Both the position numbers and the translations under genes were made by a program. Of a DNA stretch of 64,000 nt, positions 1,049 through 24,195 are shown piece after piece. The stretch is from Halpernia frigidisoli (lineage in GTDB: Bacteria > Bacteroidota > Bacteroidia > Flavobacteriales > Weeksellaceae). The notes below the pieces were generated by a model, which did no database searches, was not told the origin of the DNA, and saw only the letters and a list, made by a program, of their open reading frames with translations. Numbering within the stretch: the stretch's first letter is position 1; the number at the start of each line of letters is the position of its first letter. The stretch spans positions 1 to 64,000 of the forward strand of contig NZ_FOQT01000002.1 in NCBI RefSeq assembly GCF_900113805.1. The letters are read 5' to 3'.

Positions 1049-1128
1049 AAGTACCGAAAACGCAACTATTTGTCCTAACAAAATAGTACGACTTCGTCTC
1101 ATCTTTGCATCATCAAATTATATTAAAA

Positions 1129-1716: not shown

Positions 1717-1722
1717 ATTAAA

Positions 1723-2349: not shown

Positions 2350-2885
2350 TGCCAAATTCGGACATTTTAGAATTTTTATTTTCAACTGCCTCTGCAATAG
2401 TTGCAACTTTAACGGGTTTAATTGGCGCATTTTCAACCTTTCAACTGCAAAACATTAGCAATGAAATTAGTTTTTTAAAAGGCTTCGTCTTAGAAAAAAA
2501 ACCCGATAATAATAAAACGCTTACTGAATATATTAAAGGCGAAGATTATCATCTATTAGAAAAAATTTATGATAGGAATTTGGAAGGAATTCAGATTATG
2601 GAAAACGTAATTGCTAAGCATAATTTGCATTTGCAACTAAACGAATTTTCATTTGACTTGCAAAATATTAGAAATAATCAATTGAAATATAGTCACATAA
2701 AAAAATTGACCATCAAAAATTTTAGTTTGTCGGTGGTATTCGTAATGCTAAGTTTAGCCTTACTGATTTTTACAAATAACATTTTATCATTCCATTTTTT
2801 TTGGATTTTTATTAGCACCTATTTCGTATTAATCGGCATTATGCTTTATCAATTTAAAAAACAAATAAAACAATTAATTAAATAA
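2349..2885 (+). CDS. Membrane protein of unknown function
   Basis: About 178 residues. There is one hydrophobic segment near the N-terminus (about residues 8-28), a charged central helical region, and two hydrophobic segments near residues 125-145 and 148-168. The family is not recognised. The ATG at 2349 overlaps the previous stop as TGATG; an in-frame ATG at 2343 is the alternative. Position within the operon suggests expression with the methyltransferase and SDR genes. Confidence 0.7.
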   Translation: MPNSDILEFLFSTASAIVATLTGLIGAFSTFQLQNISNEISFLKGFVLEKKPDNNKTLTEYIKGEDYHLLEKIYDRNLEGIQIMENVIAKHNLHLQLNEFSFDLQNIRNNQLKYSHIKKLTIKNFSLSVVFVMLSLALLIFTNNILSFHFFWIFISTYFVLIGIMLYQFKKQIKQLIK

Positions 2886-2890
2886 AAAAA

Positions 2891-3277
2891 ATGAAAAAAT
2901 CAATCTTCACTTTTGCATTAATATTCATCGCAACCATAACTTTTGCACAGAAAAAACATAAAAATAATCGCTTAGATTTTGTGGGAAAAACCTACGAGTA
3001 CACCATCGAGGAAACGCATCTTAACCTTACAATAATCTCAAACACCGAAGCAAAATGGTTGTACGTTTCTTCCCCAAATAATGAAACCGGTAAGACTGAA
3101 ACCGAAAAAGCCACGATTACTAAAATAGCAAAAGGCGTTTATCAAATCACTTGGACAGAAAAAGATGGTTCAAACGTTATCGATATTTTTAACTTGAATA
3201 CCAATGAAGTTTTTGTGAATTTCACCTTGCCCGATGCCAAAATGTACAATTTAAAAGCAAACTTTAAAATCAAATAA
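2891..3277 (+). CDS. Secreted MoaF-like (calycin fold) protein
   Basis: This 128-residue protein starts with a signal peptide (ITFAQ cleavage region near residue 20). The mature part, with GKTYEYTI, a central VYQITWTEKDG and a closing beta pattern, resembles MoaF-like small calycin-fold proteins that bind small ligands. The resemblance is by eye and moderate. It is the fourth gene of the operon, two bases before the DJ-1-like gene, and both products are predicted to be exported. Confidence 0.65.
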   Translation: MKKSIFTFALIFIATITFAQKKHKNNRLDFVGKTYEYTIEETHLNLTIISNTEAKWLYVSSPNNETGKTETEKATITKIAKGVYQITWTEKDGSNVIDIFNLNTNEVFVNFTLPDAKMYNLKANFKIK

Positions 3278-3279
3278 AA

Positions 3280-4077
3280 ATGAAAAAAAAATTAACAACA
3301 ATTGCACTAACCTTACTGGTAACAATTGGTTTTGCACAAAAATCACAAACTAAAACAAACAAAAAAATGAAAATCGTATTTGTAGTTTCCAACCAAGTAA
3401 AATCCGAAACAACAGATTATCCAATCGGTTTTTGGTTATCCGAATTAGCACAACCTTATTATGCTTTTAGCGAAGCAGGCTATGAAATTACTATCGCTTC
3501 ACCCGATGGTGGAAAAATTGTTTTTGACGGTTGGAGCGACCCCGAAAGTCCGAATGCAAGAGAATTAGATTTAGTAAGTACAGGTTTTAAACACAACCCT
3601 AAAACGGTTGCGTTGATGGAAAATACCGTAAAATTAGACGAAATAAAAGCCGATAATTTTGATGGCATTTTTGTAGTAGGCGGACTTGGACCAATGCAAA
3701 CGTTTTACAACAATGAAAATCTGCAAAAATTATTTGCTCAATTTTATGAAGCAGGCAAAGCATCTGCAACTATTTGCCACGGTTCGGCTATTTTATTACA
3801 AACAAAATTAAGCAATGGAAAATTATTATCCGAAGGTAAAAAATGGACAGGCTTTTGCAATGCCGAAGAAGATATAGTAGATAAAGGAGCAGGTAAAAAA
3901 ATGCAACCTTTCCGCATAGAAGATGAGGCCCAAAAATTGCACACCAAATACATAACAGGTGATATCCCATACAAATCTTTTGCTGTTGCTGATGACAATT
4001 TAGTTAGTGGACAACAAGGAAGTAGTGGAAAAGAGACAGCCGAATTAGTGATTAAATTTTTGAAATCAAAAAAATAA
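3280..4077 (+). CDS. Exported DJ-1/PfpI family protein (class I glutamine amidotransferase-like)
   Basis: This 265-residue protein has an N-terminal signal peptide followed by a full DJ-1/PfpI domain of the Hsp31-like subgroup. The nucleophile elbow ATICHGSA places the catalytic Cys near residue 166, followed by His. GIFVVGGLGPMQ is the conserved loop before it. Family members act as glyoxalase III, chaperone or protease. Export is less usual, since most relatives are cytoplasmic; an internal Met (MKIVFVV, residue 30) could give a cytoplasmic form. It fits an operon for coping with reactive small molecules. Confidence 0.87.
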   Translation: MKKKLTTIALTLLVTIGFAQKSQTKTNKKMKIVFVVSNQVKSETTDYPIGFWLSELAQPYYAFSEAGYEITIASPDGGKIVFDGWSDPESPNARELDLVSTGFKHNPKTVALMENTVKLDEIKADNFDGIFVVGGLGPMQTFYNNENLQKLFAQFYEAGKASATICHGSAILLQTKLSNGKLLSEGKKWTGFCNAEEDIVDKGAGKKMQPFRIEDEAQKLHTKYITGDIPYKSFAVADDNLVSGQQGSSGKETAELVIKFLKSKK

Positions 4078-4078
4078 A

Positions 4079-5080
4079 ATGAAGCATTTAATCTCAACCA
4101 TCATTGTGGCTTTTGCTACGATGATGGTTTCTTGTAATTCAAAAAACATCAAAATGGAACAAAATTTCACTACTCAAAAGGTAAATTTTAAAAGCGAAAA
4201 TCAAAATATTGTTGGGCTTTTATGTCAAAACGATACAAAAACTAAAAAATCGGCTGTTGTGATTTTGGGACCAATATGTTCGGTAAAAGAACAATCACCT
4301 ATTCAATATGCCACAAGATTAGCCCAAAATGGCTTTATTGCTTTGTGTTTTGATGCAAGAAGTTATGGTGAAAGCGAAGGAATGCCAAGACAATTTGAAA
4401 GTTTAAAAAACAAAGAACAAGACGTAAAATCTGCCATAGATTATTTGATTTCAAGAAATGATGTAGATGCTCAAAATATATTTGTTTTGGGAATTTGCAA
4501 TGGCACAAACGAAATGATGCAGGTAAGCATTGATGATAAAAGAGTAAAAGCATTGGCGTTAGTTTCGGGAAATTATTTAATCAAAGAAAATATGTTGCAT
4601 CTTTTGGGCGATGAAACTATTTGGAATAAGCACTTGCAAAGAGCAAAAACGGCAAAAGAAAAATTTGAAAAAACAGGTGAAGTAGATTACATAAAAATTA
4701 TTGACAGCATAGGAACAGACCAGTTATTACCACCTTTGCCTATTTACGAATGGTACCATCCTTGGGAAAAGAAAGCACCATATTTTGCTTATCGTGGCGG
4801 TTGGAAAAACGAAGTAACGGCAATGAGTGAATGGGAAACTTTGAATTTTGATGCGTTGAGCGTTGCAAAAAAAATAAAAAAGCCAACTTTGCTTATTCAC
4901 GGAGAAATGAGCGATGGAGGTTATGAATTTGCAAAACAAATTTTTAATGCAATCCCAACGCCAAACAAAAAATCTGTTTGGATAGACAAAACAGTACATT
5001 TTCAATTTTATGACGACCCGAGAATAATTGGACAATCGGTAAATGAAATTTCTAATTGGTTTAATAACAATATAAAATAA
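4079..5080 (+). CDS. Lipoprotein alpha/beta hydrolase with Cys nucleophile elbow
   Basis: This 333-residue protein has a lipoprotein signal (MMVSC, lipidated Cys near residue 19) and an alpha/beta hydrolase fold with the loop FDARSYGES. The nucleophile elbow reads GICNG with Cys near residue 140, where esterases have Ser. Dienelactone hydrolases also use Cys at this position. A distal acidic residue (LLIHGEMSDGG) and a late His (KTVHFQF) complete a plausible triad. It starts one base after the DJ-1 gene stop, inside the operon. The substrate is unknown. Confidence 0.82.
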   Translation: MKHLISTIIVAFATMMVSCNSKNIKMEQNFTTQKVNFKSENQNIVGLLCQNDTKTKKSAVVILGPICSVKEQSPIQYATRLAQNGFIALCFDARSYGESEGMPRQFESLKNKEQDVKSAIDYLISRNDVDAQNIFVLGICNGTNEMMQVSIDDKRVKALALVSGNYLIKENMLHLLGDETIWNKHLQRAKTAKEKFEKTGEVDYIKIIDSIGTDQLLPPLPIYEWYHPWEKKAPYFAYRGGWKNEVTAMSEWETLNFDALSVAKKIKKPTLLIHGEMSDGGYEFAKQIFNAIPTPNKKSVWIDKTVHFQFYDDPRIIGQSVNEISNWFNNNIK

Positions 5081-5085
5081 AACAA

Positions 5086-5544
5086 ATGAGCAAAGCAATA
5101 ATATTTTCAGATAGCAGAATTTTAAAAACTACTGTTGAAAATGCCTATCAAAAATTGATAGAACCAGCCGAACAAGTACAATGGAATTCACTTTATTTAG
5201 AAGCCACCATTTTCCCCAAAGGCGAAATAAAAAACGGTTCTGTAATGACAGGGAATTTTAAAGGTTCAGGGAAAGCAAAAGTTACTTTTCAAAATGTTCA
5301 GACAAACAAAGAGTTTACACACTATTCAAAAATGAAAATGTTTAACTTTTTTAACCTTGGCGAATTTCATCATACATATCAAGTAACTGACAAAGGCGGA
5401 CAAACAGAAATTACGCAAACTGTTTCTTTTGAACCTAAAAGTTTAGGGCTACTTTTAAAAAATGTAATCGCCAATAGTTTCAAGAAAAGATTACCCGAAA
5501 GTTTTAATGAGTTTCAAAAGTATGTGGAAGAATTAAATTCGTAA
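5086..5544 (+). CDS. SRPBCC (START-like) domain protein
   Basis: This 152-residue protein has no signal peptide and shows the polyketide cyclase/START-like pattern: an N-terminal strand, a helical stretch, a run of strands with NGSVMTGNFKGSG and ITQTVSFEPKS, and a long C-terminal amphipathic helix. Such domains bind hydrophobic ligands and sometimes act as cyclases. It is the last gene of the first cassette and ends 17 bp before attC-like site S1. Confidence 0.75.
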   Translation: MSKAIIFSDSRILKTTVENAYQKLIEPAEQVQWNSLYLEATIFPKGEIKNGSVMTGNFKGSGKAKVTFQNVQTNKEFTHYSKMKMFNFFNLGEFHHTYQVTDKGGQTEITQTVSFEPKSLGLLLKNVIANSFKKRLPESFNEFQKYVEELNS

Positions 5545-5560
5545 AGCACAGAAAGGGCAG

Positions 5561-5693
5561 CAGCTAACAAGGGTTTTGCAAAAGTGGGGCATTTGTACTA
5601 AATTTGAGTATTGGAATTCTAATCAACATTTGTGCTGAAATGAACATTTGTGCTTCGATTTCCCCACCTTCGCAAAGCCCCAAACCGTTATCT
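5561..5693 (+). repeat. attC-like site S1
   Basis: The left box CAGCTAAC (5561-5568) and right box GTTATCT (5687-5693) bound a palindrome. The inner stem pairs CAAAAGTGGGG with CCCCACCTTCG. The adjacent bases GGGCAGCAGCTAAC pair with the start of cassette 1 at 93, while GTTATCTGTAAGCG pairs with the end of cassette 2. The loop carries a perfect TAAATTTG box at 5599-5606 with TTG 20 bases upstream. It shares its inner stem type with S3. Confidence 0.8.
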
Positions 5694-6164: not shown

Positions 6165-6296
6165 CAGATAACAGCGGTTTTGCAATAGTGCGGGATTTTC
6201 GCAAGTTTAAAGATTTTAGATATTTTGAAGATTAATTTATAATAGAAAAAGTTTGTATTTTTAGCCGCACCATCGCCAATACGCAAACCGTTAGCG
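6165..6296 (+). repeat. attC-like site S2
   Basis: The left box CAGATAAC (6165-6172) and right box GTTAGCG (6290-6296) enclose a site of the commonest subtype (left arm GCAATAGTGCGG, right arm CCGCACCATCGCCAATACGC). The cassette 2 end CGCCTACAGATAAC matches its own start GTTATCTGTAAGCG at 13 of 14 positions. The loop contains a -7-like TATTTTTA at 6256-6263. Confidence 0.8.
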
Positions 6297-7350: not shown

Positions 7351-7482
7351 CGCTAACAAGGGTTTTGCAAAAGTGGGGCAAAAGTGCTGAATTGAGCATT
7401 TGTACTTCTAATAAATATTTGTGCGAAATTGAACATTTGAGCTTCTAATTCCCCACCTTCGCAAAGCCCCAAACCGTTAGCT
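7351..7482 (+). repeat. attC-like site S3
   Basis: The left box CGCTAAC (7351-7357) and right box GTTAGCT (7476-7482) enclose a site of the same subtype as S1 (left arm AAGGGTTTTGCAAAAGTGGGG, given here as 7358-7378). The end of cassette 3 matches its own start over GTTAGCGGT. The complementarity then continues as TTGT after a one-base offset. Confidence 0.8.
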
Positions 7483-7959: not shown

Positions 7960-9207
7960 TTGAACGAGAAAGAATTAATTGCACAACTTTTTAAGACAGA
8001 GTACAGAAAGATAATTTCTGTACTCTGTAAGTTGTTTGGCATTGTTCATATTGAAATTGCAGAAGATATTACCAACGATACTTTTTTATTGGCTTCTGAA
8101 ACTTGGGAATTAAAAGGCATTCCCGAAAATCCAACGGCTTGGCTTTATACTGTTGCTAAAAACAGAACCAAAGACTACTTTAAACGACATAAAACATTTT
8201 CTGAAAAAATAGTTGTTGATTTTAAACTGAATCAAAACCAAAGTGAATCAATTGAAGTTGATTTATCTCATAAAAATATAACAGACAGCCAATTGCAAAT
8301 GATTTTCACCATTTGCAATCCAATAATTCCAGCAGAAGCACAAATTGGTTTAGCATTAAGAATTCTTTGTGGTTTTGGAATTGATGAAATTGCAGAGGCA
8401 TTTTTGACCAATAAAGAAACCATCAATAAACGATTATTTAGAGCCAAAGAAAAATTACGAACAGAAAATATTAAAATTGAATTACCGACTGAAAACGATG
8501 TTAATTCAAGATTAGAAACTGTACTGACTACATTATACTTGCTTTTTAATGAAGGTTATCATTCAAGTACACAGAAAACTCATTTACGAAAAGAATTGTG
8601 TTTGGAAGCAATGCGTTTAAATTATTTTTTGATAGAAAATGAAACTACAAACAAACCCATCGTAAACGCTTTGATGGCTTTAATGTGCTTTCACTCTTCA
8701 CGTTTTGAAGCAAGAACCAATCAAATAGGCGAACCAATTTTGTATGACCAACAAGATAAAAATTTATGGAACGAAGAACTCATAGCAAAAGGAAATTTTT
8801 ATTTAATACAAAGTGCCCAAGGTAATGAATTAAGCAAATATCATTTAGAGGCAAACATTGCCTATTGGCATAGTAGCAAAATTGAAAATCCAAAAAAGTG
8901 GGACAATATTTTACAAGCCTATAATCAACTTTTGCTAATTGAATATTCACCAATAACAGCACTAAACAGAACTTATGCGTTGGCACAAGTAAAGGGTAAA
9001 CAAACCGCAATTATAGAGGCAGAAAAATTAAATCTAACAGACAATCATTTTTACTTTTCCTTGCTTGGTTATTTGCATACAGATATTAACAATATGAAAG
9101 CAATTGAAAATTTTGAAATTGCATTAACTTTGGCAAAGACAAATGCAGACAAATCAACAATTACTAAAAATTTGTACGACTTGAAAGCGAAAAAAAACAA
9201 CAGCTAA
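7960..9207 (+). CDS. ECF-type RNA polymerase sigma factor with long C-terminal domain (DUF6596 type)
   Basis: About 415 residues. The N-terminal sigma-70 region 2 and region 4 (IDEIAEAFLTNKETINKRLFRAKEKLR) are followed by a TPR-like C-terminal domain of the DUF6596 type (LYLLFNEGYH, LNRTYALAQVKG). Relatives begin NEKEL...LFRTEY, which matches a TTG start at 7960, one base after the YCII stop; an in-frame ATG at 7921 would add 13 residues and overlap the YCII gene. The stop TAA (9205-9207) lies in the left box of site S4. The pair probably acts as a sigma switch with YCII as partner. Confidence 0.88.
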   Translation: MNEKELIAQLFKTEYRKIISVLCKLFGIVHIEIAEDITNDTFLLASETWELKGIPENPTAWLYTVAKNRTKDYFKRHKTFSEKIVVDFKLNQNQSESIEVDLSHKNITDSQLQMIFTICNPIIPAEAQIGLALRILCGFGIDEIAEAFLTNKETINKRLFRAKEKLRTENIKIELPTENDVNSRLETVLTTLYLLFNEGYHSSTQKTHLRKELCLEAMRLNYFLIENETTNKPIVNALMALMCFHSSRFEARTNQIGEPILYDQQDKNLWNEELIAKGNFYLIQSAQGNELSKYHLEANIAYWHSSKIENPKKWDNILQAYNQLLLIEYSPITALNRTYALAQVKGKQTAIIEAEKLNLTDNHFYFSLLGYLHTDINNMKAIENFEIALTLAKTNADKSTITKNLYDLKAKKNNS

Positions 9208-9333
9208 CAGCGGTTTTGCGTAATGGCGGGTTCAGTGCTTCGTATGACAGTTTTGTGGTAGATTCAAGTTCAGTTCTTCGATTGAGGTTTTGTGCTAAAA
9301 TCCGCCACTACGCAAAGCTACCAACCGTTATGC
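9202..9333 (+). repeat. attC-like site S4
   Basis: The left box AGCTAAC (9202-9208) and right box GTTATGC (9327-9333) bound the clearest example of the fold. The inner stem pairs TTTGCGTAATGGCGG with CCGCCACTACGCAAA, leaving one A/C mismatch on the top strand (G-T on the bottom). The unpaired segments between stems are about 6 nt on the left and 10 nt on the right. The stop codon of the sigma gene is within the left box. Confidence 0.82.
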
Positions 9334-10055: not shown

Positions 10056-10183
10056 GCATAACAAAGTATTTATACAAGCGGGTCTGAAGTTTTCATCGAA
10101 GATTTTAGCGATTAAGTAAGTTTTTAGCAAGTAGAAAGTTTTCGTATTTTTATCCCGCCTGCATAAATACCCAAACGTTAGCA
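10056..10183 (+). repeat. attC-like site S5
   Basis: The left box GCATAAC (10056-10062) and right box GTTAGCA (10177-10183) enclose a distinct subtype. Its inner stem pairs GTATTTATACAAGCGGG with CCCGCCTGCATAAATAC, with two A/C positions that become G-T wobbles on the bottom strand. The only close relative in the window is the broken site S14. GCATAAC pairs with the cassette 5 start GTTATGC. Confidence 0.8.
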
Positions 10184-12022: not shown

Positions 12023-12153
12023 TGCTAACAGCGGTTTGCATAAATGGCGAAATATGAGGTAAATTCACGTTTATCTTTCGCAAGAAATTTTATCTTAGCC
12101 GAAAAATCTCGGTTACGAAGTTCGCCACTTCTGCAAGCCGCGAAACGTTAGCA
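12023..12153 (+). repeat. attC-like site S6
   Basis: The left box TGCTAAC (12023-12029) and right box GTTAGCA (12147-12153). CAACTGGTGCTAAC at the cassette 6 end matches its own start GTTAGCACCAATTG at 13 of 14 positions. The inner stem pairs TTGCATAAATGGCGAA with TTCGCCACTTCTGCAA. The loop carries TATCTTAG at 12091-12098, 18 bases after a TTT. The subtype is shared with S8. Confidence 0.8.
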
Positions 12154-12603: not shown

Positions 12604-12734
12604 TGCTAACATCGGTTTTGCAATAGTGCGGGATTTTCGCCAGTTTCGAGATTTTAGATATTTTGAAGTTTCGTTTATAATAGAAAGATTTATCATATTA
12701 ATCCGCACCATCGCAAAGCCGCCAAACGTTAGGT
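12604..12734 (+). repeat. attC-like site S7
   Basis: The left box TGCTAAC (12604-12610) and right box GTTAGGT (12728-12734). It has the common GCAATAGTGCGG inner arm paired with CCGCACCATCGC. The cassette 7 end AAACTGTTGCTAAC matches its own start at 13 of 14 positions. Confidence 0.8.
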
Positions 12735-13343: not shown

Positions 13344-13475
13344 ACCTAACAGCCGTTTCGCGCAATTGCGAATTTTGTTCAAAATTCACGTTTGCGTTTC
13401 GCAAGAAATATTACCTTAATAGAAAATAATCGGTTCCGAAGTTCGCAACTGTCGCGAAGCGCCGGAACGTTAGCA
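13344..13475 (+). repeat. attC-like site S8
   Basis: The left box ACCTAAC (13344-13350) and right box GTTAGCA (13469-13475). The inner stem pairs TTCGCGCAATTGCGAA with TTCGCAACTGTCGCGAA. The loop has the best promoter-like pair among the sites: TTG at 13392-13394, 17 bases, then TACCTTAA at 13412-13419. The cassette 8 end GTACCTCACCTAAC matches its own start at 13 of 14 positions. Confidence 0.8.
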
Positions 13476-14041: not shown

Positions 14042-14174
14042 TGCTAACAGCCGTTTGGCGAGATTGGGGTTTTAGGCTTAATTTAAAGATGGTTTTGTAC
14101 TTGTAAAATTTGTGTTTAATGGAAAAATCTCGCATCTTTACTCCCCAACCTCGCCAAGCGCCAAGACGTTAGCT
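14042..14174 (+). repeat. attC-like site S9
   Basis: The left box TGCTAAC (14042-14048) and right box GTTAGCT (14168-14174). The inner stem pairs TTGGCGAGATTGGGG with CCCCAACCTCGCCAA, one A/C mismatch being the only defect. This inner stem is unlike all others in the window. Cassette 9 ends in ATCTGCTAAC, complementary to its start GTTAGCAGAT. Confidence 0.8.
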
Positions 14175-14713: not shown

Positions 14714-14844
14714 AGCTAACAGCGGTTTTGCAATAGTGCGGGATTTTCCCGAGTTTAAAGATTTTAGATATTCCGTAGTTTAGTTTATAATAGAAAGATT
14801 TGTCATATTAAGCCGCACCATCGCAAAGATGCAAAACGTTGTAG
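14714..14844 (+). repeat. attC-like site S10
   Basis: The left box AGCTAAC (14714-14720) and right box GTTGTAG (14838-14844). The inner stem pairs TTTGCAATAGTGCGG with CCGCACCATCGCAAA, with exactly two A/C positions, both G-T on the bottom strand. The cassette 10 end AAACTACAGCTAAC matches its own start at 13 of 14 positions. Confidence 0.82.
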
Positions 14845-15634: not shown

Positions 15635-15766
15635 CTACAACAGCGGTTTTGCAATAGTGCGGGATTTTCGCCAAGTTTAACTATTTTAGATTTTCCGAAG
15701 TTTAGTTTATAATAGAAAGATTTGTCATATTAATCCACACCATCGCCAATACGCAAAACGTTATCT
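15635..15766 (+). repeat. attC-like site S11
   Basis: The left box CTACAAC (15635-15641) and right box GTTATCT (15760-15766). The left box carries CAAC rather than TAAC, and the start of the same cassette correspondingly reads GTTGTAG rather than GTTA. This is a compensatory change preserving self-complementarity. The cassette 11 end GCACTACCTACAAC matches its own start at 13 of 14 positions. Confidence 0.82.
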
Positions 15767-15802: not shown

Positions 15803-16642
15803 ATGAAGTACATTTTAGTATTTATCCTATTTCTCTCAAATATATGTGTTGCTCAAACTCATAGGTTTATTTATGAATATAAATTCGTTGCTGACTCAAC
15901 AAAAAGCGACAGTATTATTGTTGAAAATACAAGATTAGAAATATTTAAAGACCATTCTGAATTTTTGAGTGATGTAAATACAAAAAAAGATTCTGCAATA
16001 GCGACTGCAAAGGAAAGAAAAGAAAGTGAGGCTAATATTCAGTTTGCAGATGGAAAATACCTAGGTAAAACGTATAAAAGTAAAAATCTGGTTTATACAA
16101 TTGATTACATTGGAATTCAACCTTTTAAGGTGGTAAGAAATGCAAAATTAAAATGGTCATTATCAAACGAAAAAAGAATAATTGAAGGTTATAAATGTCA
16201 GAAAGCAACCATAAATTTTGGAAACCGTCAATGGGAAGCATGGTTTACTGAAGACATACCCATTCAGGAAGGCCCCTATCTTTTTAGTGGGCTCCCGGGA
16301 TTAATAGTAAAAATTTATGATACTACAAATCAACATTCTTTTTTGTTAGTTGCAAACTATAAAACAACAAGTACTAAAACAAATATTATTAATAAACCTT
16401 ATTTAGTGCCTACTCAAATCAGCGAGATTCTTTTTAATAAAAAATGGAATGAATTTAGAAAAAATCCGATTGGAGGAACTGAACAATTTATGATTCTGAA
16501 CCCAGGCCTTTTAAGCGGAGAAAGATTTGATGAAAATGGAAATAAACTTGATTTCAGACAAGGTTTAAGGGAAGAGAAAAAGTATACGGAAAAATGGATA
16601 AAAAATAATAATAATTTTCTGGATTTAAAATTATATAAGTAA
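15803..16642 (+). CDS. GLPGLI family secreted protein
   Basis: This 279-residue protein has a signal peptide (NICVAQ) and the signature FSGLPGLIVKI (GLPGLI at about residues 163-168) that defines this Bacteroidota family. Its strand-rich pattern includes EAWFTEDIPIQEGPYLF just before the motif, as in relatives. The function is unknown; members are often near TonB-dependent transport or metal-related genes. Here it is the sole gene of cassette 12. About 95 bases of non-coding sequence follow the stop before S12. Confidence 0.9.
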   Translation: MKYILVFILFLSNICVAQTHRFIYEYKFVADSTKSDSIIVENTRLEIFKDHSEFLSDVNTKKDSAIATAKERKESEANIQFADGKYLGKTYKSKNLVYTIDYIGIQPFKVVRNAKLKWSLSNEKRIIEGYKCQKATINFGNRQWEAWFTEDIPIQEGPYLFSGLPGLIVKIYDTTNQHSFLLVANYKTTSTKTNIINKPYLVPTQISEILFNKKWNEFRKNPIGGTEQFMILNPGLLSGERFDENGNKLDFRQGLREEKKYTEKWIKNNNNFLDLKLYK

Positions 16643-16739: not shown

Positions 16740-16867
16740 AGATAACATATTGGCAATAGTGCGGAACAATCGCACGTTTAACTATCTTATATATTCCGAA
16801 GATTAATTTACAATACAAAAAATCTGTATTTTTAGCCGCACCATCGGAAAACCGCGGAACGTTATAA
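16740..16867 (+). repeat. attC-like site S12
   Basis: The left box AGATAAC (16740-16746) and right box GTTATAA (16861-16867). The end of cassette 12, TAGCACTGCAGATAAC, matches its own start at 15 of 16 positions, the longest match in the array. The outer part of the right arm (CATCGGAAAACCGCGGAAC) departs from the common subtype. Confidence 0.78.
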
Positions 16868-16911
16868 ATCTGCTAACCAACAGCCGTACAAAAAAGAAAA
16901 ACAGAAAACAA

Positions 16912-17637
16912 ATGAAAAATTTAATCTTTTATTTAATTTTGGTTTTCGCATTACAATCTTGTGAAAATAAAACGAAAAAATCAACAGAATTTAACTCAAA
17001 GTTAAAAAACTCAACAGAGATAAATTCCATACCAACTGATTTTCAAAGTCTGCTAAGACCAGATGAAAAATTGAAACTTGGAAAAATTTATACAGACACT
17101 TTAAAGTATGTCACTTTTGATGACAATGGAGATAATTGGTTAGTTTTTGTCAAGAAAAACAATGACACAATTGGTTTAGTATATAATAAAGAACAAACTT
17201 ATTTTAAAAGTGGAGATGAAATAAAAATCGAATGGAAGATGGATAGTATTAGAAATGCAGGCGATTCTGATTTTCTTGACTATAAAGAATTTATAATTAA
17301 AATACAAAAAACTAAAAGTAATGTTGCGGGTAGAAATTTCAACAATATTGAAAACGAATCATTCGTTATAAGTTGTGGTACTGGCTGTGCAATGACATAC
17401 AATGTAAAAAAAATAACACAAATAAATTCTAACACCGTTAAAGTTGTTTTTCAAATAGAACAATATATAGATGAAGAATTGACTGAAACTTACGATGAGA
17501 CTTATATTTTTAGAAATGACCAAAATAATACAATAGAAATGGTAACTGATAATGGTAAAAATGAAAATATCAAAGAAATGTTATTTGGAGGTGCATTGCA
17601 ATCGTTTCAAAATTTTGGAAAAAAACTAATGCAATAA
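16912..17637 (+). CDS. Lipoprotein of unknown function
   Basis: This 241-residue protein has a lipoprotein signal (ALQSC, lipidated Cys near residue 17), a Ser/Thr/Lys-rich linker and a strand-rich mature domain. A CGTGCAM motif near residue 158 contains two close Cys residues. No family was recognised. It is the only gene of cassette 13, whose ends are less well matched than those of the other cassettes. Confidence 0.68.
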   Translation: MKNLIFYLILVFALQSCENKTKKSTEFNSKLKNSTEINSIPTDFQSLLRPDEKLKLGKIYTDTLKYVTFDDNGDNWLVFVKKNNDTIGLVYNKEQTYFKSGDEIKIEWKMDSIRNAGDSDFLDYKEFIIKIQKTKSNVAGRNFNNIENESFVISCGTGCAMTYNVKKITQINSNTVKVVFQIEQYIDEELTETYDETYIFRNDQNNTIEMVTDNGKNENIKEMLFGGALQSFQNFGKKLMQ

Positions 17638-17684
17638 ATTAAAAAAGATGGTTACTGAAAATTCAAAAGAATGTAAAGCAGATC

Positions 17685-17714
17685 GCACAACAGCAGTTTG
17701 GCAAAACCTTAGAC
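17685..17714 (+). repeat. Collapsed attC-like site S13
   Basis: Only about 30 bp remain: a left box GCACAAC, then AGCAGTTTGGC, then AAAAC and a mutated right box CTTAGAC (17708-17714). The whole inner hairpin and loop of about 100 bp is missing, as if deleted between the two arms. CTTAGACGAAATTCT still matches the rc of the end of cassette 14 except at positions 1, 6 and 11, which supports the reading of this stretch as a former site. Confidence 0.65.
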
Positions 17715-17733
17715 GAAATTCTAAAAACAACAT

Positions 17734-18084
17734 ATGACACCAAAAAAGATTTTGAAAATTTCGGGAATTATTTTAGTGCTATTTGCAATTTTTAGATTGA
17801 TAAATCCGGACATAACAAAATCAATTACTATACAAGATTGTAAAAGTGAATATAAAATGTCTGTGTTTGGACGTGAATATGAAGGGTACAGATATCATAA
17901 CGCAAAAATGGAAGTTGCGAAATGCTTATGTAAAAAATATATCCAAACCAAAAACAAAAAATATGATGATGAAATTTATAAAATCATCAATGAGTTCGAA
18001 CTCAATGAATTCGTAGAAAAAAATTCAATTGAAGAAATTTGCAAAAATAATGAAGAAATTTTTTCAAATTGGTATTATGAATGA
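17734..18084 (+). CDS. Small membrane-anchored protein of unknown function
   Basis: This 116-residue protein has one N-terminal membrane segment (about residues 8-23) and a charged C-terminal domain containing CLCKKY. No family was recognised. It is the last gene of the array, followed by the broken site S14 only 9 bases after the stop. The collapsed site upstream may have fused its transcription to cassette 13. Confidence 0.65.
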   Translation: MTPKKILKISGIILVLFAIFRLINPDITKSITIQDCKSEYKMSVFGREYEGYRYHNAKMEVAKCLCKKYIQTKNKKYDDEIYKIINEFELNEFVEKNSIEEICKNNEEIFSNWYYE

Positions 18085-18093
18085 AAGAACTTC

Positions 18094-18160
18094 GCCTAAC
18101 AGAGTATTTCTATTAGCGGGTCGGAAGTTCCTATCATCAAGATTTTCGCTAACTGTTCAA
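18094..18160 (+). repeat. Degenerate attC-like site S14 (left arm only)
   Basis: GCCTAAC (18094-18100) is followed by AGAGTATTTCTATTAGCGGG and a stretch similar to the left half of S5. No matching right arm or GTTA box occurs downstream. AGAACTTCGCCTAAC pairs with the mutated start of cassette 14. This marks the right boundary of the array. Confidence 0.65.
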
Positions 18161-18447
18161 TTTTTTATTTACCAAGACTTGTTGTAAAAATTTTTCTTAA
18201 AAAGAAAATGTTTGGAAACGCTAATTAGAAGCCATTTTATACACAGAAATTTAAAATAATTTTTAGGACAAAAAATGATTTGAAGTTATTTATATTGCCG
18301 ATAATAAATTCAAACATCTTCTTAAATTTTCAACAATACAGATTGTTTAATACGAAAAAAGAACTGCACAACACATAAAAAAAGAACTTTACAACAAAGC
18401 CAATCAATTCCATCATTATTAATTTTGCATTATAAAATTTATAAAAA
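18161..18447. other. Non-coding boundary between array and chromosome
   Basis: A/T-rich sequence without an ORF or repeat that I recognise. TAATTTTG at 18420-18427 is a plausible -7 box for the SDR gene at 18448. Confidence 0.5.
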
Positions 18448-19407
18448 ATGAAAATGACCAGAACAGTATTAGTAACCGGAGGAACAGGGTTTGTTGGAAT
18501 TCATACTATTTTGCAATTACTGCAACGAGGTTATAAAGTAAAAACAACGCTACGTTCTTTAGCAAAAAAAGACCTCATTATTAATGCGTTGAAAGAAGCA
18601 GGAATTACCAGTTTCGATAACCTGTCATTTTACGAAGCGGAACTAACGGATGATAAAGGATGGGACGAAGCGGTGAAAGATTGTGATTATGTTTTGCATA
18701 TTGCTTCCCCCGTTCCTGCAAAACAGCCAAAGGACGAGAATGAAGTAATTATTCCTGCTCGTGATGGTGCTTTGAGAGTATTGAGAGCGGCAAAAAGAGC
18801 AGGCGTAAAACGTGTAGTGCTCACTTCGTCATTTGCGGCAATTGGATATAGTAGAAACTCAAAAAATCATGTTTTTACCGAAGAAGATTGGACCGATGAA
18901 AATGCGCCTATTGAACCTTATATCAAATCAAAAGTGGTTGCTGAAAAAGCAGCTTGGGATTTTATAAAAAATGAAGGCGGCGATCTAGAATTTACTGTGA
19001 TTAATCCAGTCGGAATTACCGGTCCTGTTATCGGCGGTATTTATCCTGTTGTGCAAGATCTTCTTAAGTCTATTATCGATGGTGTCGTTACAGAAACACC
19101 TTTGTTTACTTTTGCGACCGTTGATGTTAGAGATGTCGCAGATATTCATATTAAGGCAATGTTGGATCCTGATGCAGACGGACAACGTTTTTTGGCTACG
19201 ACAGCTGGTTCAGTTGCCTTTAATGATATTGCAGAACTCATCAAAAAAGAACGTCCTGAAATAAGCAGTAAAATCGCAGATTTAAAACCCGTTTCAGAAG
19301 AATTTTATGTAGCTATTTCATATAAAAAAGCAGAAGAAATACTAGATTGGCATCCTCGAAGTAAAGAAGAAACACTTTTAGCAAGTATTGATAGTATAAT
19401 TAACTAA
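18448..19407 (+). CDS. NAD(P)-dependent reductase/epimerase, extended SDR (dihydroflavonol 4-reductase-like)
   Basis: This 319-residue protein has the Rossmann motif TGGTGFVG (about residues 10-17), a Ser-rich active-site strand (VVLTSSFAAIGY) and the catalytic pair Tyr158/Lys162 in YIKSK. Length and motifs fit the extended SDR group of cinnamoyl-CoA/dihydroflavonol reductase-like proteins, which reduce aldehydes or ketones with NADPH in the cytoplasm. The AraC gene 30 bp downstream is probably in the same unit or controls it. This is the first gene past the array. Confidence 0.9.
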   Translation: MKMTRTVLVTGGTGFVGIHTILQLLQRGYKVKTTLRSLAKKDLIINALKEAGITSFDNLSFYEAELTDDKGWDEAVKDCDYVLHIASPVPAKQPKDENEVIIPARDGALRVLRAAKRAGVKRVVLTSSFAAIGYSRNSKNHVFTEEDWTDENAPIEPYIKSKVVAEKAAWDFIKNEGGDLEFTVINPVGITGPVIGGIYPVVQDLLKSIIDGVVTETPLFTFATVDVRDVADIHIKAMLDPDADGQRFLATTAGSVAFNDIAELIKKERPEISSKIADLKPVSEEFYVAISYKKAEEILDWHPRSKEETLLASIDSIIN

Positions 19408-19437
19408 ATTTGATTTGTAAATAATCTTCCAAAAAAA

Positions 19438-20244
19438 ATGCAAACCACCGCTATCCAATCTTGCCATTTAGGTCCGGAAATTTCGCCCGAACAGTTTATA
19501 CCTGAGCATTTTTTCCTATATATTTTGCAAGGTTCGATGAAGGCTTTTGATGGGAAAAATAATTATTCGATGAAGCCGGGCGATTATTGTATTGCCCGGA
19601 AAAATCATTTAATGCGCTACACAAAACTTAAAGATGAAAATAATTCCTTTCAAAAAATAGTCATCACTTTAGACGAAATTTTTTTAAAAAACTATCTGGA
19701 AAAACATCCAATATCGGTTGGCGTTTTTGATAATGAAAATTCATTTTTATTTGTAGAGGAAAATGTATTGATAAAAAGTTTTATACAATCATTAAAACCT
19801 TACTACAGCGGAAATGAGCAAATTGACCAAACTTTTGCAGATGTAAAGCGGGAAGAATTATTGCTGATTTTACTAAAAAACAATCCTATACTTGCAGATG
19901 CATTTTTCAATTTTGGAATACCTGAAAAAATAAATTTAGAAGAATTTATGAATCTTAATTTCAGGTTTAATATTAGTTTGGAACGTTTTGTATTTCTTAC
20001 GGGTAGAAGTTTATCTTCATTTAAAAGAGATTTTCAGAAAATATTTGGAACAAACCCGGGAATTTGGCTCAAAAAGAAACGTCTTGATGAAGCCTATTTT
20101 CAAATCAGCAACCAACACGAAAAACCAGGCAATATTTATCTTGAAGTAGGCTTTGAAGATTTTTCCCATTTTTCATTCGCTTTTAAAAAAGAATTTGGTT
20201 TAGCACCAACACAATTAGCTGCTAATAATTTGGGCAACAGGTAA
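19438..20244 (+). CDS. AraC family transcriptional regulator
   Basis: This 268-residue protein has an N-terminal cupin-like region (LYILQGSMKAFDG, MKPGDYCIARKN) and a C-terminal AraC helix-turn-helix (GRSLSSFKRDFQKIFG, then DFSHFSFAFKKEFGLAP). This type, which resembles exsA-like regulators, is common in Bacteroidota. It follows the SDR gene closely, so the pair may form a regulator/target unit. It is similar in plan to the regulator at 31757. Confidence 0.9.
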   Translation: MQTTAIQSCHLGPEISPEQFIPEHFFLYILQGSMKAFDGKNNYSMKPGDYCIARKNHLMRYTKLKDENNSFQKIVITLDEIFLKNYLEKHPISVGVFDNENSFLFVEENVLIKSFIQSLKPYYSGNEQIDQTFADVKREELLLILLKNNPILADAFFNFGIPEKINLEEFMNLNFRFNISLERFVFLTGRSLSSFKRDFQKIFGTNPGIWLKKKRLDEAYFQISNQHEKPGNIYLEVGFEDFSHFSFAFKKEFGLAPTQLAANNLGNR

Positions 20245-20347
20245 CCGCGGTTTTCGTAATTGTTGCTTTTTCTTAAATTTGAACGAGGTTTTTATAGCTG
20301 GAAAATTTGATTTAAAAATAAATCTTTAACGACTTAAATCTCTAAAT

Positions 20348-20965
20348 ATGAATTATGCACAATTAGCTTTTACAGATGCTGTTAAAAACTTGCAGGAAAA
20401 GCAGGGAAGCAGAAATGGTTATGACAGGATGGAAAAAATGTCGGTTGTTGACGGACTTACAGATAATGAAATTAGTTTTATTCAAGACCGTGACAGTTTT
20501 TATATGGCAAGTTTCGGCGAAAATGAATTTCCATACATTCAACATCGCGGCGGACCGAAAGGTTTTGTAAAGGTGATTGATGATAAAACTATTGGCTTCG
20601 TAGATTTTGCGGGAAATAAGCAATATATATCTGCAGGAAATATAGTCACAAATAATAATGTGGCGATTATTATGGTGTCCTATCCGCATCGTGCAAGATT
20701 AAAACTTTACGCCAAAGCAAAAATTGTAGATCTTGAAAATGATCAAAAATTATATGAACTTCTAAAACCTGAAGACTATCAATTTCGTCCTGAAAGAATG
20801 ATGGTATTCGAAATTCAGGCCTACGACTGGAATTGTCCGCAATATATTACACTACGTTTTACCAGCGAAGAGATTGAGGAAATCTTGAAACCACAGAAAG
20901 AATATATCCTAACTCTCGAAAATAAGGTGAAGATGTTGGAAGAAAAATTGAAAGATCAAAAATAA
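20348..20965 (+). CDS. Pyridoxamine 5'-phosphate oxidase-like flavin-binding protein
   Basis: This 205-residue protein shows the split-barrel PNPOx pattern: DRDSFYMASFGENEFPYIQHRGGP early on, a GFVDFAGNKQYISAGN central segment and an ENDQKLYELL helix. It resembles the PNPOx-like family that binds FMN rather than true PdxH. The C-terminus is a short coiled helix. It is probably a flavin-dependent reductase of unknown substrate and lies between two AraC genes. Confidence 0.83.
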   Translation: MNYAQLAFTDAVKNLQEKQGSRNGYDRMEKMSVVDGLTDNEISFIQDRDSFYMASFGENEFPYIQHRGGPKGFVKVIDDKTIGFVDFAGNKQYISAGNIVTNNNVAIIMVSYPHRARLKLYAKAKIVDLENDQKLYELLKPEDYQFRPERMMVFEIQAYDWNCPQYITLRFTSEEIEEILKPQKEYILTLENKVKMLEEKLKDQK

Positions 20966-21066
20966 ACAAAGATTAGTTTTATTTAAATTTATTTACCAAT
21001 AGAAAATTTAGTAAGCAATTTAACTGAACTTTTAATTACTTTTAAAAATCAACAAAGTACCTCTAT

Positions 21067-21927
21067 ATGAAAAATATGATCTCAAAATCTGGTGAGTATT
21101 TAATTGGAATAGAAGAAAATGTTGATCTTAATTTGACGATTCGCGTTCAGTTTTATGAGTATGCATTTATTCTTATCCATAATGGTGAAGGAATTTACCA
21201 CGCAGATTTTTCCTCATTTCTTTTTACGGGACCAAAATTATTGTTTGCAACGCCTATGCAAACTATTTTTTTTACTTCTGAGAAAGAAATAAAATATACT
21301 CTGTTACGCTTCCATTCAGACTTTTATTGTATTGAAGCGCATCGGGATGAGGTGGCTTGCAACGGACTTTTATTTAATAATATTTATGCTGAGCCTTCAG
21401 TTGACCTTTCGAAAAAGCAATTACAAGAATTTTCACAACTGATCAACCAAATTAAGTTTGAGTTTAAAGATGTTGCTTCTTCAGAGATTGTTTTAAAAGC
21501 TTACCTGCAGGTATTTTTAGCGAAATGCAGCAGTATCAAGTTAAAAACTTTAGAAATTTTGAATGTCAATACTTTGAAAGATGATAAAATGGAACAGTTC
21601 AGGTTGCTGTTAGATAAAAATTTCTTAACGCTGCACAAACCCAATGATTACGCTGAACTTTTATTAATTACCTCAAATACACTCAGCAAAAAATCAATAA
21701 AATACTTCGGTAAAACACCTTCTCAGTTAATTCAGGATCGATTGGTTTTAGAGGCTAAAAAATTATTGCACCTTACCACTTTCAGTATCAAGGAAATTGC
21801 TTTTCGCCTGCAATTTAATGACGAATATTATTTTAGTCGGTTTTTTAAGAAATGTACCAAATTATCACCACAAACTTTTAGAAAAAAAGGCGGTATTTCT
21901 GAAATAGCATATTTGTCCAAGGAATAG
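21067..21927 (+). CDS. AraC family transcriptional regulator
   Basis: This 286-residue protein has a divergent N-terminal sensor half and a C-terminal AraC domain (SNTLSKKSIKYFGKTP, IKEIAFRLQFNDEYYFSRFFKK, LSPQTFRKKG). It lies 70 bp upstream of the RclC-like gene, which has a separate -7 box, so control of that gene by this regulator is likely. The effector is unknown. Confidence 0.9.
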   Translation: MKNMISKSGEYLIGIEENVDLNLTIRVQFYEYAFILIHNGEGIYHADFSSFLFTGPKLLFATPMQTIFFTSEKEIKYTLLRFHSDFYCIEAHRDEVACNGLLFNNIYAEPSVDLSKKQLQEFSQLINQIKFEFKDVASSEIVLKAYLQVFLAKCSSIKLKTLEILNVNTLKDDKMEQFRLLLDKNFLTLHKPNDYAELLLITSNTLSKKSIKYFGKTPSQLIQDRLVLEAKKLLHLTTFSIKEIAFRLQFNDEYYFSRFFKKCTKLSPQTFRKKGGISEIAYLSKE

Positions 21928-21963
21928 TCGTTTTCGTCCATTTTTTCAACGTCATATTCAGCC

Positions 21964-21971
21964 TAATTTTG
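21964..21971 (+). promoter_or_regulatory. -7 box upstream of the RclC-like gene
   Basis: TAATTTTG matches TAnnTTTG and lies 26 bp before the ATG at 21998. No exact TTG was found at 17-19 bases upstream, as would suit an activator-dependent promoter. Confidence 0.5.
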
Positions 21972-21997
21972 CTTCATAATAATTAAAATAAACTATT

Positions 21998-22552
21998 ATG
22001 AAAAGCACCTTATATTTTTTAGCAAATTCTCAAAAACAATTTATCAACTTACTTAGAATATCCATTTTCATTGTTATGACATGGATTGGTAGGTTAAAAG
22101 CCTTTCAATACGAAGCAGAAGGCATTGTTCCCTTTGTCGCGAACAGTCCGGTTATGAGTTTTTTTTATAACCATCCGGTAGAATATAAAACCCATAAAAA
22201 CAAAGAAGGTGAAGTAAATCTCACAAATATTCAATGGAATAAAGATAACGGGACTTACACTTTCGCTTTGGTTCTTGGATTTTCTATTATTTTGATTGGA
22301 TTCCTAACGTTTTTAGGAATTTGGTTTGCAAAAATAGGTCTATTTGGTGCTTTGCTCACTTTTGGAATGTCGCTGGTTACACTTTCTTTTTTAATTACCA
22401 CCCCGGAAGCTTATGTTCCCAATTTGGGCGGTGCAGATTACGGTTTTCCCTTTCTATCAGGCGCGGGTAGATTGGTTATAAAAGATATTATCATGATGAC
22501 TGCTGGATTAGTAATTGCATCCGATTCAGCCCGGAAAATTGAAATTAAATGA
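21998..22552 (+). CDS. YkgB/RclC-like (DUF417) membrane protein
   Basis: This 184-residue protein has about four membrane segments (residues 20-37, 85-105, 110-130 and 155-172) and the family features MTWIGRLKAFQYEAEGIVPFVANSPVMSF... and PEAYVPNLGG. In E. coli the relative RclC belongs to the reactive chlorine response and is controlled by an AraC protein, RclR; here too an AraC gene lies just upstream. A similar oxidant-response role is inferred only. Confidence 0.88.
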   Translation: MKSTLYFLANSQKQFINLLRISIFIVMTWIGRLKAFQYEAEGIVPFVANSPVMSFFYNHPVEYKTHKNKEGEVNLTNIQWNKDNGTYTFALVLGFSIILIGFLTFLGIWFAKIGLFGALLTFGMSLVTLSFLITTPEAYVPNLGGADYGFPFLSGAGRLVIKDIIMMTAGLVIASDSARKIEIK

Positions 22553-22644
22553 AAATAACTAACTCTGAATACCTTACAATCTATGCGTTGCAAAAGAAAA
22601 CGCAATTTAATTATGAAATATTTAAATTAAAATACAAACAATAA
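22549..22644 (+). CDS. Possible 31-residue ORF overlapping the rclC-like stop
   Basis: An ATGA overlap with the RclC-like stop opens a 31-codon frame (MKITNSEYLTIYALQ...). The arrangement suggests translational coupling, but there is no independent support and it may be chance in A/T-rich DNA. Confidence 0.2.
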   Translation: MKITNSEYLTIYALQKKTQFNYEIFKLKYKQ

Positions 22645-22656
22645 AAAATAAAAATC

Positions 22657-23478
22657 ATGAATTCAAAAACATATACAGAGGACGGTTTAAAATCAATTTC
22701 CCTCTACAACATTGCTTTTACAGTAGAAAATATAGATGCGTCAATTAAATGGTACAAGGATGTATTGGGTTTCGAACTTAAAAATAAATCTAAATTCAGC
22801 TTACCTTCAGGCTCGGCGGATATCGCTATTCTTAAATTGGGAGATTTAAATCTAGAGTTACTTCAAGTTCCAAATAGCAAAAAAATTCCGGAAATGTTTG
22901 CTGATGTGCCAATGCACCTAATTCCGATAGGAAATAAAGTAATTGTATTTCAGGTAACTGATCTCAATTTAACAACCCAGCAATTGGAAGAAAAAGAGGT
23001 GAAATTTGTGTGGAAGGAGCAATATATAGCAGGTGACAAAATGCTGTGTACCATGATTGAAGACATTGATGGCAATAAAATTAACATATTTCAAACGAAT
23101 ACTATTTTTGAAGATGAAAAAATCGAAAATAATTTAAGTGCAGAAAATATGGCCAAAAAACATTTACAATTATGGAACGAAAAAAATATGGAACTTCGAA
23201 GAAATGCTATCGATTTAATATATTCAGATTATATCAAATTTTTAGATCCTCAGATCAACTTTGAGGGAAAAGAAAAATTAAATGATTTTATTACAGATCT
23301 TCAATCAAAACATCCAGATCATGCTTTTAGTTTGGTTGGTGAAGTTTTAAATCATCATCATACTATAAAATTTAACTGGGAATTCAAGTCGGAAAAAGAT
23401 AATTCAAAAATAATGGGTTCAGATATTCTATATCTAAAAAATGGATTAGTTGATAAGATATCCGTATTTATCGAGTAA
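22657..23478 (+). CDS. Fusion of VOC (glyoxalase/bleomycin resistance) and SnoaL-like domains
   Basis: This 273-residue protein has an N-terminal VOC domain (about residues 12-145: IAFTVENIDASIKWYKDVLGF, LNLELLQVP, ending DIDGNKINIFQ) joined to a SnoaL/NTF2-like domain (about 160-273: HLQLWNEKNMELRRNAIDLIYSDY). VOC domains handle small thiol adducts or bind drugs; SnoaL domains are small-molecule isomerases or binders. The fused protein is probably a cytoplasmic detoxification enzyme. It lies downstream of the RclC-like gene with about 100 bp between. Confidence 0.87.
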   Translation: MNSKTYTEDGLKSISLYNIAFTVENIDASIKWYKDVLGFELKNKSKFSLPSGSADIAILKLGDLNLELLQVPNSKKIPEMFADVPMHLIPIGNKVIVFQVTDLNLTTQQLEEKEVKFVWKEQYIAGDKMLCTMIEDIDGNKINIFQTNTIFEDEKIENNLSAENMAKKHLQLWNEKNMELRRNAIDLIYSDYIKFLDPQINFEGKEKLNDFITDLQSKHPDHAFSLVGEVLNHHHTIKFNWEFKSEKDNSKIMGSDILYLKNGLVDKISVFIE

Positions 23479-23529
23479 AATATAATTCAAAATTTGAATT
23501 ATTTAAGTGAATAAAATAATTATTTTAAA

Positions 23530-24009
23530 ATGTTTGAAATCAAAAAATTTGAAGTCAAAGATCAAAATCAAGTACGGGAATTTGTTTTAAACATACAAAA
23601 CAATGAATTCAATCTGGGTTTTGAAGCAGCAGAACAACCTGACTTAATTGATATAGAAAAGTTTTACAAAAGTGGAGGTTTTTGGACTGCAAAAATAAAT
23701 AATACCATCGTCGGAACGATAGGTCTTCAAATTACTAACGAGAAAAATGGAATATTAAGAAAAATGTTTGTTCAAAATGAACTTAGAGGAAAAGAATTTC
23801 ATTTAGCGCAAAAATTATTTAATACCTTAATTAAATTTGCAAAAAACAAAGAAATTAATACCTTATGGCTTGATACACCAAAAATTGCAACTGCATCTCA
23901 CAAATTTTACATACGAAATGGATTTGAACAATCTTTTAATGAAAATTTACCAATGGATTATGTTTTCCCCGATCGGAATTCAATGATATACAAACTGTGC
24001 GTAAAATAA
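23530..24009 (+). CDS. GNAT family N-acetyltransferase
   Basis: This 159-residue protein has the GNAT core: NTIVGTIGLQI for strands 3-4, the acetyl-CoA segment LRKMFVQNELRGKEFHLAQKLF (R-G-K in the pyrophosphate loop) and a C-terminal ASHKFYIRNGFEQ. The substrate is unknown. Confidence 0.88.
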   Translation: MFEIKKFEVKDQNQVREFVLNIQNNEFNLGFEAAEQPDLIDIEKFYKSGGFWTAKINNTIVGTIGLQITNEKNGILRKMFVQNELRGKEFHLAQKLFNTLIKFAKNKEINTLWLDTPKIATASHKFYIRNGFEQSFNENLPMDYVFPDRNSMIYKLCVK

Positions 24010-24195
24010 GATGTAAGATGGATATAAAAAGGAGGTTTTTTTGCTAACATAATCTTGCTAAAAATCTAATTTATTACAAGACAATTATTACAAAAATTTA
24101 CCAGAAGATTTTTCTCAACAAAAATAAAAATTATCATAGAAAAAATTAGATTTCAAAAACTGAAATCGAAATTGATTTAAGCTAATTCTCTACAT

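Follow-up and report, generated by a model that had tools for sequence, protein, structure and literature searches.

The closest described counterparts of the locus analysed here are the sedentary chromosomal integrons (IntI/attI/attC), the core box of which has the consensus GTTRRRY. According to the available text of one account, an additional IntI-specific domain near patch III defines the integrase (PMC9668308), and the Bacteroidota are listed among the phyla with integrons both there and in the available part of another (PMC8618304). Clusters of attC sites without an integrase are known as CALIN elements, and the XerA/XerC-like recombinases (NF040815; PDB 4a8e and 5hxy) are among the best sequence relatives of the recombinase described below. 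In Riemerella anatipestifer, the aph(3')-IVb gene with 27 bp of 5' and 140 bp of 3' sequence is described as integrating without homology, the 140-bp 3' region is said to fold like attC, and lnu(H) and blaRATA are said to behave like aph(3')-IVb; in its available portion, that paper calls the integration mechanism "not fully elucidated" and names no recombinase (PMC13148043). Among the matches listed in the open-licence literature, taken at the level of titles and the beginnings of abstracts, no non-IntI integron lineage in Flavobacteriia was found, and a word search of the accessible part of PMC5371416 gave no wording on distal decay.

The window, i.e., the whole stretch of 64,000 nucleotides that was analysed, comprises bases 1 to 64000 of a 690-kb contig (C3) of the 3.02-Mb, 11-contig genome of Halpernia frigidisoli. 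Its attC-like sites, scored with a covariance model (R1) that was also used to find sites in other genomes, form a cassette array running in one direction (Table 1). As in integrons, the cassettes are one-directional and mostly single-gene, an imperfect-hairpin site follows each of them, the boundary is G|TT, and the system includes a divergent tyrosine recombinase beside the array and an attI-like insertion point with repeated motifs. The recombinase gene and the attI-like region are on contig C7, at the opposite end of the array from sites S12 to S14. We join C7 to C3 through the array because in Halpernia humi DSM 21580 (NZ_FNUS01000008.1) two cassettes separate the orthologous recombinase locus from a homologue of window positions 24305 to 31241; the join rests on this synteny, with a single strain of the species compared. 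The left edge of C3 is a contig end that cuts site S0, and C6 likewise begins inside a site recognized by R1. Cassette sites are also carried by contigs C4, C5, C6, C8, C10, and C11 of the same genome, and the small cassette-bearing contigs C4, C8, C10, and C11 may sit between C7 and C3. We estimate at roughly 80% the probability that the cassette array in the window is integron-like, that its right end is the one distal to the recombinase, and that the last sites there are dead. An earlier note on this DNA had placed the distal end here, and the position of the recombinase and the attI-like region at the other end agrees with it, as does the H. humi synteny.

The recombinase gene encodes a tyrosine recombinase of 361 amino acids on the minus strand of C7 (positions 9037 to 10122 of the fetched locus L014), 3.7 kb from the right end of that contig. 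The first cassette starts at position 10264 on the plus strand of the same locus, divergent from the recombinase gene, and just upstream of it is the attI-like region, which ends in TTGCGTATATTTG and in which a TTGCG-type motif is repeated. Across eight aligned attI-like loci of our choosing, TTGCGTATATTTG is invariant (8/8), and the sequences diverge within a few bases after it; a putative attI site is thus placed at the insertion point. At this end of the array, TATATTTG and a TTG 19 bases upstream of it fit a Bacteroidetes promoter.

The array appears to behave like that of an integron, and it adjoins what seems to be another kind of recombinase than IntI. The IntI profile TIGR02249 matched the recombinase with 180.4 bits, against a cut-off of 265, and in two stretches; in a genome search with this profile, the pieces break at profile position 176 and restart at 242. 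Residues ~200 to 249 of IntI4 (2a3v) have no counterpart in the recombinase, and the IntI-specific additional domain near patch III is absent from it. Its score against the XerA-type family NF040815 is 203.4 bits, below the curated cut-off of 220, and a relative encoded on a plasmid (locus L221) scores 221.5 bits. It also differs from the XerA/XerC-like recombinases in having ~88 residues before the SAM-like domain and in its location at a cassette array. Only 3 of 123 sites match GTTRRRY (GTTA in 87 and GTTG in 30), and because of this and the missing IntI-specific region, we do not class the array as an IntI integron. Both the recombinase of this array and the cassette-end code described below would escape searches in which the IntI domain is required.

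Matches to the recombinase at an E value of 1e-60 or lower were found in 44 of 149 genomes, that of H. frigidisoli included. The layout was read for 41 of the 80 named recombinase loci, fetched with both flanks where the contig allowed: sites were seen in 27 and none in 14, several of the latter being cut by contig ends. The sites were divergent from the recombinase gene in 17 of the 27 loci, downstream in the same direction in 9, and in another arrangement in 1, and the divergent layout is therefore common, not universal. The loci with sites downstream in the same direction (L153, L158, L160, L168, L170, L171, L175, L179, and L181) come from Flavobacterium, Mucilaginibacter, Runella, Telluribacter, and MAGs. 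Plasmid NZ_CP041688.1 of Chryseobacterium sp. SNU WT5 (L221) encodes a relative of the recombinase whose gene is upstream of R1-type sites and shares the orientation of the array instead of diverging from it.

Fourteen sites on C7 and C3 were measured, and their AAC-to-GTT span is 120 to 125 nt. In 13 of these, 95.1% of the stem cells are paired and double changes occur at 14 of the 16 pairs, and none of 500 shuffles was equally good. Folded as single strands, S6, S9, Sa, and Sc gave z values of -2.4 to -4.7, and S4 gave -1.3, these five being the folds available for comparison with S12. Covariation and folds together give the conserved structure with diverse sequence that characterizes the imperfect hairpins of attC. 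The sites matched no Rfam family at gathering scores.

The cassettes carry a second signal, in which this array differs from integrons: their ends are complementary over ~15 nt, with an A/G combination at position 10. For 95 cassettes between adjacent sites, from this genome and its relatives, start and end pair at a mean of 11.76 of 15 positions, versus a mean of 7.00 (SD, 1.93) for mismatched pairings, 132 of 8930 of which reach 12. Of the 76 cassettes pairing at 11/15 or more (the 19 adjacent pairs below 11/15 were excluded from position counts), 74 have A at position 10 of the start and G at that position of the reversed end; these two bases mismatch on the top strand and form a G-T wobble on the bottom one. 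There are 51 distinct 7-nt boxes among the cassette ends. The sites behind these statistics were picked by the R1 model, with a subset of the matches copied by hand, and the pairs are non-independent, as certain cassettes recur across genomes. The first cassette of the end-pairing list (c1) is paired at ~13/15 by eye. The eight plus-strand open reading frames (ORFs) between S0 and S1 behave as a single cassette; the first encodes an AraC-type regulator, and the other seven were named by eye only.

Table 1. Positions of sites, cassettes, and flank in the window
Feature	Positions	Strand	Basis
S0, attC-like site, 5' part cut by contig end	1..100	+	CM R1, 66.5 bits
Multigene cassette, 5.4 kb, S0 to S1	93..5566	+	ends pair 12/15
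S1, attC-like site (AAC..GTT)	5566..5689	+	125.5 bits
S2, attC-like site, arms mismatched (left type A, right type B)	6170..6292	+	125.6 bits, arm pairing
S3, attC-like site	7355..7478	+	covariance model R1
S4, attC-like site	9206..9329	+	covariance model R1, fold
S5, attC-like site	10060..10179	+	covariance model R1
S6, attC-like site	12027..12149	+	covariance model R1, fold z -3.97
S7, attC-like site	12608..12730	+	covariance model R1
S8, attC-like site	13348..13471	+	covariance model R1
S9, attC-like site	14046..14170	+	covariance model R1, fold z -4.70
S10, attC-like site, stem weakened	14718..14840	+	covariance model R1, arm duplex
S11, attC-like site, mismatched arms, weak stem	15639..15762	+	arm duplex -12.5 kcal/mol
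Cassette 12 gene, 279 aa, Porph_ging / PNGase_F-II_N domains, ORF intact	15803..16642	+	
S12, chimeric broken site (left arm type B, right arm type A)	16744..16863	+	72.1 bits, fold, arm pairing
Left-arm-like remnant CTGCTAACCAACAGCCGT, 18 nt, directly behind S12 right box	16870..16887	+	
Cassette 13 gene, 241 aa, lipoprotein-like N terminus by eye, ORF intact	16912..17637	+	
S13, collapsed site, left arm abuts CTTAGAC	17689..17714	+	
Cassette 14 gene, 116 aa, ORF intact	17734..18084	+	
S14, left arm and central region present, right arm and core absent	18098..18190	+	
Right flank, array boundary region, unmatched in Halpernia humi	18191..24190	+	

The three successive terminal sites, S12, S13, and S14, all lack a proper stem, and each has a different defect. 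The defect of S12 had been missed in the earlier note, but this site is also broken. Its minimum-energy fold does not contain the attC stem (z, -1.1; the value of -1.3 for S4 is close to this, yet S4 does form the stem), and its arm duplex of -10.4 kcal/mol equals that of site Sb (-10.4), the other sites ranging from -12.5 to -23.0. The GTT core is present, and the two arms belong to different site subtypes: the left arm pairs with the right arms of S2 (-18.3), S11 (-16.0), and the first H. humi site (-18.9), and the right arm pairs with the left arm common to S2, S10, and S11 (-19.1). S2 and S11 have the reverse arm combination, and their arm duplexes also fail to beat the best of 200 shuffles; since both nevertheless lie inside the array, a mismatch between the arms may be insufficient by itself to inactivate a site. 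The ends of the cassette before S12 pair at 14/15, and those of cassette 13, behind it, at 3/15, a poor match that the earlier note had already remarked on. Within 8 kb, nothing pairs convincingly with the start of cassette 13 (best score, 12; null 95%, 11.5, and 99%, 12.5). The start and end of cassette 13 share ATCTGCT at a similar offset and were considered as a diverged pair, but this was rejected, as the start has no significant partner. Within the fetched DNA, the remnant behind S12, for which the search pattern was built after it had been seen, occurs only at its own position. The good end pairing before S12 and its absence after it, together with the remnant, fit what we infer to be a deletion there. 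S12 itself may have arisen by crossover or conversion between two subtypes that share the inner stem and loop, leaving a left arm of one type and a right arm of the other and hence an outer stem unable to form; a crossover of neighbouring sites would also delete the DNA between them.

S13 extends over 22 nt, from AAC at 17689 to CTT at 17710, compared with 120 to 125 nt in the measured sites, and its collapse, put at ~30 bp in the earlier note, is confirmed. The first 18 nt of S13 form the left arm of an intact site in locus L146 and occur with small differences in sites of L054, L066, and L067; CC and TTAGAC come next, and nothing remains of the stem, the loop, or the right arm. The right box reads CTTAGAC, as had been noted, the core G being replaced or lost, and the strand does not fold (z, +0.45), in agreement with the described loss of the inner hairpin and with hairpin deletion as its cause. 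In such a deletion, the left arm would have been fused with the right core, with loss of the hairpin and of the core G, at a junction that the sequence places only approximately. Because the start of cassette 14 still pairs at 12/15 with the end at S14, which bears out the complementary ends noted for the cassette behind S13, S13 was once a cassette boundary. The R1 model lists neither S13 nor S14 up to an E value of 1.

In S14, the left arm and the central region are kept (94 nt, from 18098 to ~18190), and only the last ~30 nt, comprising the right arm and the core, are missing; its fold has a z of -0.4. Its nearest relatives are nine intact sites (two on C10, one each on C8 and C7, four in Kaistella antarctica, and one on the Chryseobacterium plasmid NZ_CP041688.1), which match at 84 to 91% over 95 to 108 nt, compared with 77% over 66 nt for S5, and the homology to all nine ends at ~18190. 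The earlier description of S14 as only a left arm like that of S5 therefore needs correction, as the central region is also retained and the closest sequences are intact sites elsewhere. The possibility that the right arm has merely diverged was rejected: its score of 25 against five intact tails was equalled or exceeded by 261 of 2000 segments taken at random from the window and by 105 of 2000 shuffles. No match to S14 was found in phage records. The flank from ~18190 to 24190 has no match in H. humi and two weak short ones in the Kaistella antarctica genome. S14 may have lost its right arm and core at the border between array and chromosome, and this loss could be one event linked to the 6-kb flank.

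The defects at this end had been read as a gradient toward an old distal end. For the arm-duplex energies of 17 sites, with S13 entered as 0 and the right arms of Sb and S14 placed by eye, Spearman's rho is 0.42 (two-sided p, 0.095; one-sided permutation p, 0.046). No trend is seen over the first 12 sites (rho, -0.39; p, 0.21), and the last six drop almost in order (rho, 0.94; p, 0.005). Given four dead sites among 17, the probability that the last three are all dead is 0.006, with the threshold set after the values had been seen. Sb (L014, 12340 to 12430), second from the recombinase, is degenerate, with an arm duplex no stronger than that of S12; broken sites therefore also occur away from the end. 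The pattern is a terminal cliff with scattered damage, not a smooth clock: the distal position and the broken terminal sites of the former reading find support, and an age gradient along the whole array does not. Around Sb, the start of the cassette before pairs at 13/15 with the end of the cassette after, a possible fused pair.

By sequence and fold, none of S12, S13, and S14 combines a foldable stem from both arms with a GTT core as a functional attC does, and they are predicted not to recombine. Since integron excision requires two working sites, cassettes 12 to 14 would be unable to move. Their genes are all intact ORFs, and without a working flanking pair the last genes are probably locked in place rather than part of a larger mobile cassette; the fusion of cassettes proposed earlier thus seems overstated. 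Broken sites may persist at the end since nothing would excise them, and array ends could become graveyards. Decay at an array end is the expected kind of thing, and it is the context that makes it useful: gene by gene, this end shows how mobile cassettes can become fixed chromosomal genes, and the intact and broken versions of the same subtypes, side by side, offer a test of which parts of a site matter.

Several other explanations were weighed. The repeats might be dispersed transcription terminators or REP-like hairpins instead of recombination sites, given that they are intergenic and occur in 11 of the 20 family genomes searched in which no recombinase was found (the 20 being those listed among 105, at a recombinase cut-off of E <= 1e-60). 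This is extremely improbable, as the cassette ends, which lie outside the hairpin, are complementary to their own partners on the far side of entire genes, with 51 distinct boxes in use, and as R1 sites are present in all 29 searched recombinase-carrying genomes (of 43 besides that of H. frigidisoli). The 11 genomes are comparable to CALIN elements, from which the present array differs in having a recombinase at its other end. That S13 is a normal working mini-site subtype, not a broken site, is also highly improbable: related arrays do hold shorter sites (model span, 77 to 97 nt), and the cassette behind S13 has well-paired ends, but S13 has neither stem nor core G, and a search of 296 family genomes for its exact 23-nt pattern hit a single genome, at S13 itself, so that the identical degenerate sites expected of a standard subtype were not found elsewhere among them.

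Assembly error, with near-identical repeats collapsed and the sites intact in the real genome, would be in keeping with the beginnings of C3 and C6 inside such sites and with the several small contigs that hold cassettes. We consider it very unlikely, as S12 to S14 lie 16.7 to 18.2 kb inside a 690-kb contig, their three defects differ in kind, and relatives show similar broken ends. A single border event, i.e., an insertion or deletion of the segment 18191 to 24190 that cut S14 without gradual decay, has more in its favour and is a real, if rather unlikely, alternative: the segment is unmatched in H. humi, the homology of S14 to intact sites halts at ~18190, and the array of H. humi itself ends with a left arm running into a gene-like fragment. 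However, such an event leaves S12 and S13 unexplained, which lie 0.4 to 1.4 kb inside and have other defects.

The reading of a recombinase-distal end with dead sites was also considered against related genomes. A comparison proposed in the earlier note, for intact versions of S13 and S14 in relatives, yielded none; the only same-genus genome searched, that of H. humi, has a different array, and its last site is itself reduced to a left arm. Proteins similar to those of cassettes 13 and 14 are encoded in 51 and 25 of 296 genomes, respectively (that of H. frigidisoli counted in both), with best near-full-length identities of 52% and 65%, and neither protein matched Pfam or NCBIfam at the limits used. 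Over the 38 loci obtained from these searches, the R1 model gave four matches in two loci (L126 and L129). A candidate in L129 (genome G201; 77% over 70 amino acids) has an intact upstream site and a similar cassette start, but it was rejected, as that site serves another cassette; the gene runs into tandem repeats.

Ten array ends, hand-picked and not a random sample, were inspected, and seven have a broken last site; arrays that were interrupted or extended beyond the fetched DNA were excluded (e.g., L059, L060, L065, L066, L067, L141, L154, L169, and L181). Three of the seven are from this genome: that of C3, that of C5, where the core is replaced, and that of C6, where GTT is changed to GCT. 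H. humi and genome G062 retain only the left arm of the last site; the MAG UBA1937 lacks the outer right arm, with only 2.7 kb beyond it in view; and plasmid pLPY03 retains only the left arm, with a weak pair score and an opposite-strand match after it. In G005, G027, and G052, the last site is intact, and the cassette start behind it pairs convincingly with nothing in the next 8 kb. Broken array ends thus look common, and we hypothesize a ratchet in which end cassettes that can still move disappear, whereas cassettes located behind broken sites are retained.

Taken together with the known systems, the array may represent a separate, Bacteroidota-wide integron lineage with a XerA-like recombinase lacking the IntI domain, with ~15-nt complementary cassette ends that form a bottom-strand G-T wobble, and with array ends that would fix genes by arm swapping, hairpin deletion, and arm loss, and it may explain the capture, without homology, of resistance genes reported in Riemerella; for this composite proposal, we put the odds at about even. 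The Riemerella aph(3')-IVb system, as far as the available text of its description goes, has lnu(H) in common with the system analysed here, in which this gene is flanked by R1-type sites on an Empedobacter plasmid. On that Weeksellaceae plasmid (NZ_CP104212.1 of Empedobacter stercoris; locus L222, 3810 to 5066), lnu(H) lies between two R1-type sites, its cassette ends are well paired, and other resistance genes are near. R1-type sites around lnu(H) are therefore a concrete candidate for the integration mechanism that, in its available text, the 2026 paper leaves open (PMC13148043).

Some further elements were observed. A second attI-like region is located on the minus strand of locus L016 (G000:C2), at positions 5122 to 5285, with a cassette and a site behind it; the flank usually found after the recombinase gene is also there, but no such gene separates it from the attI-like region. 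In array orientation, the same element end is found at the same left-arm point of the site in four genomes, in L059 (5149), L064 (5646), L065 (1476), and L067 (11514), and the element in L059 encodes an IS1182-family transposase (NF033551, 314 bits). The element resembles the IS1111-attC elements, which target integron sites. The window also contains four Flavo-1 RNAs (RF01705), at positions 36336 to 36419, 40637 to 40717, 46620 to 46700, and 63851 to 63927.
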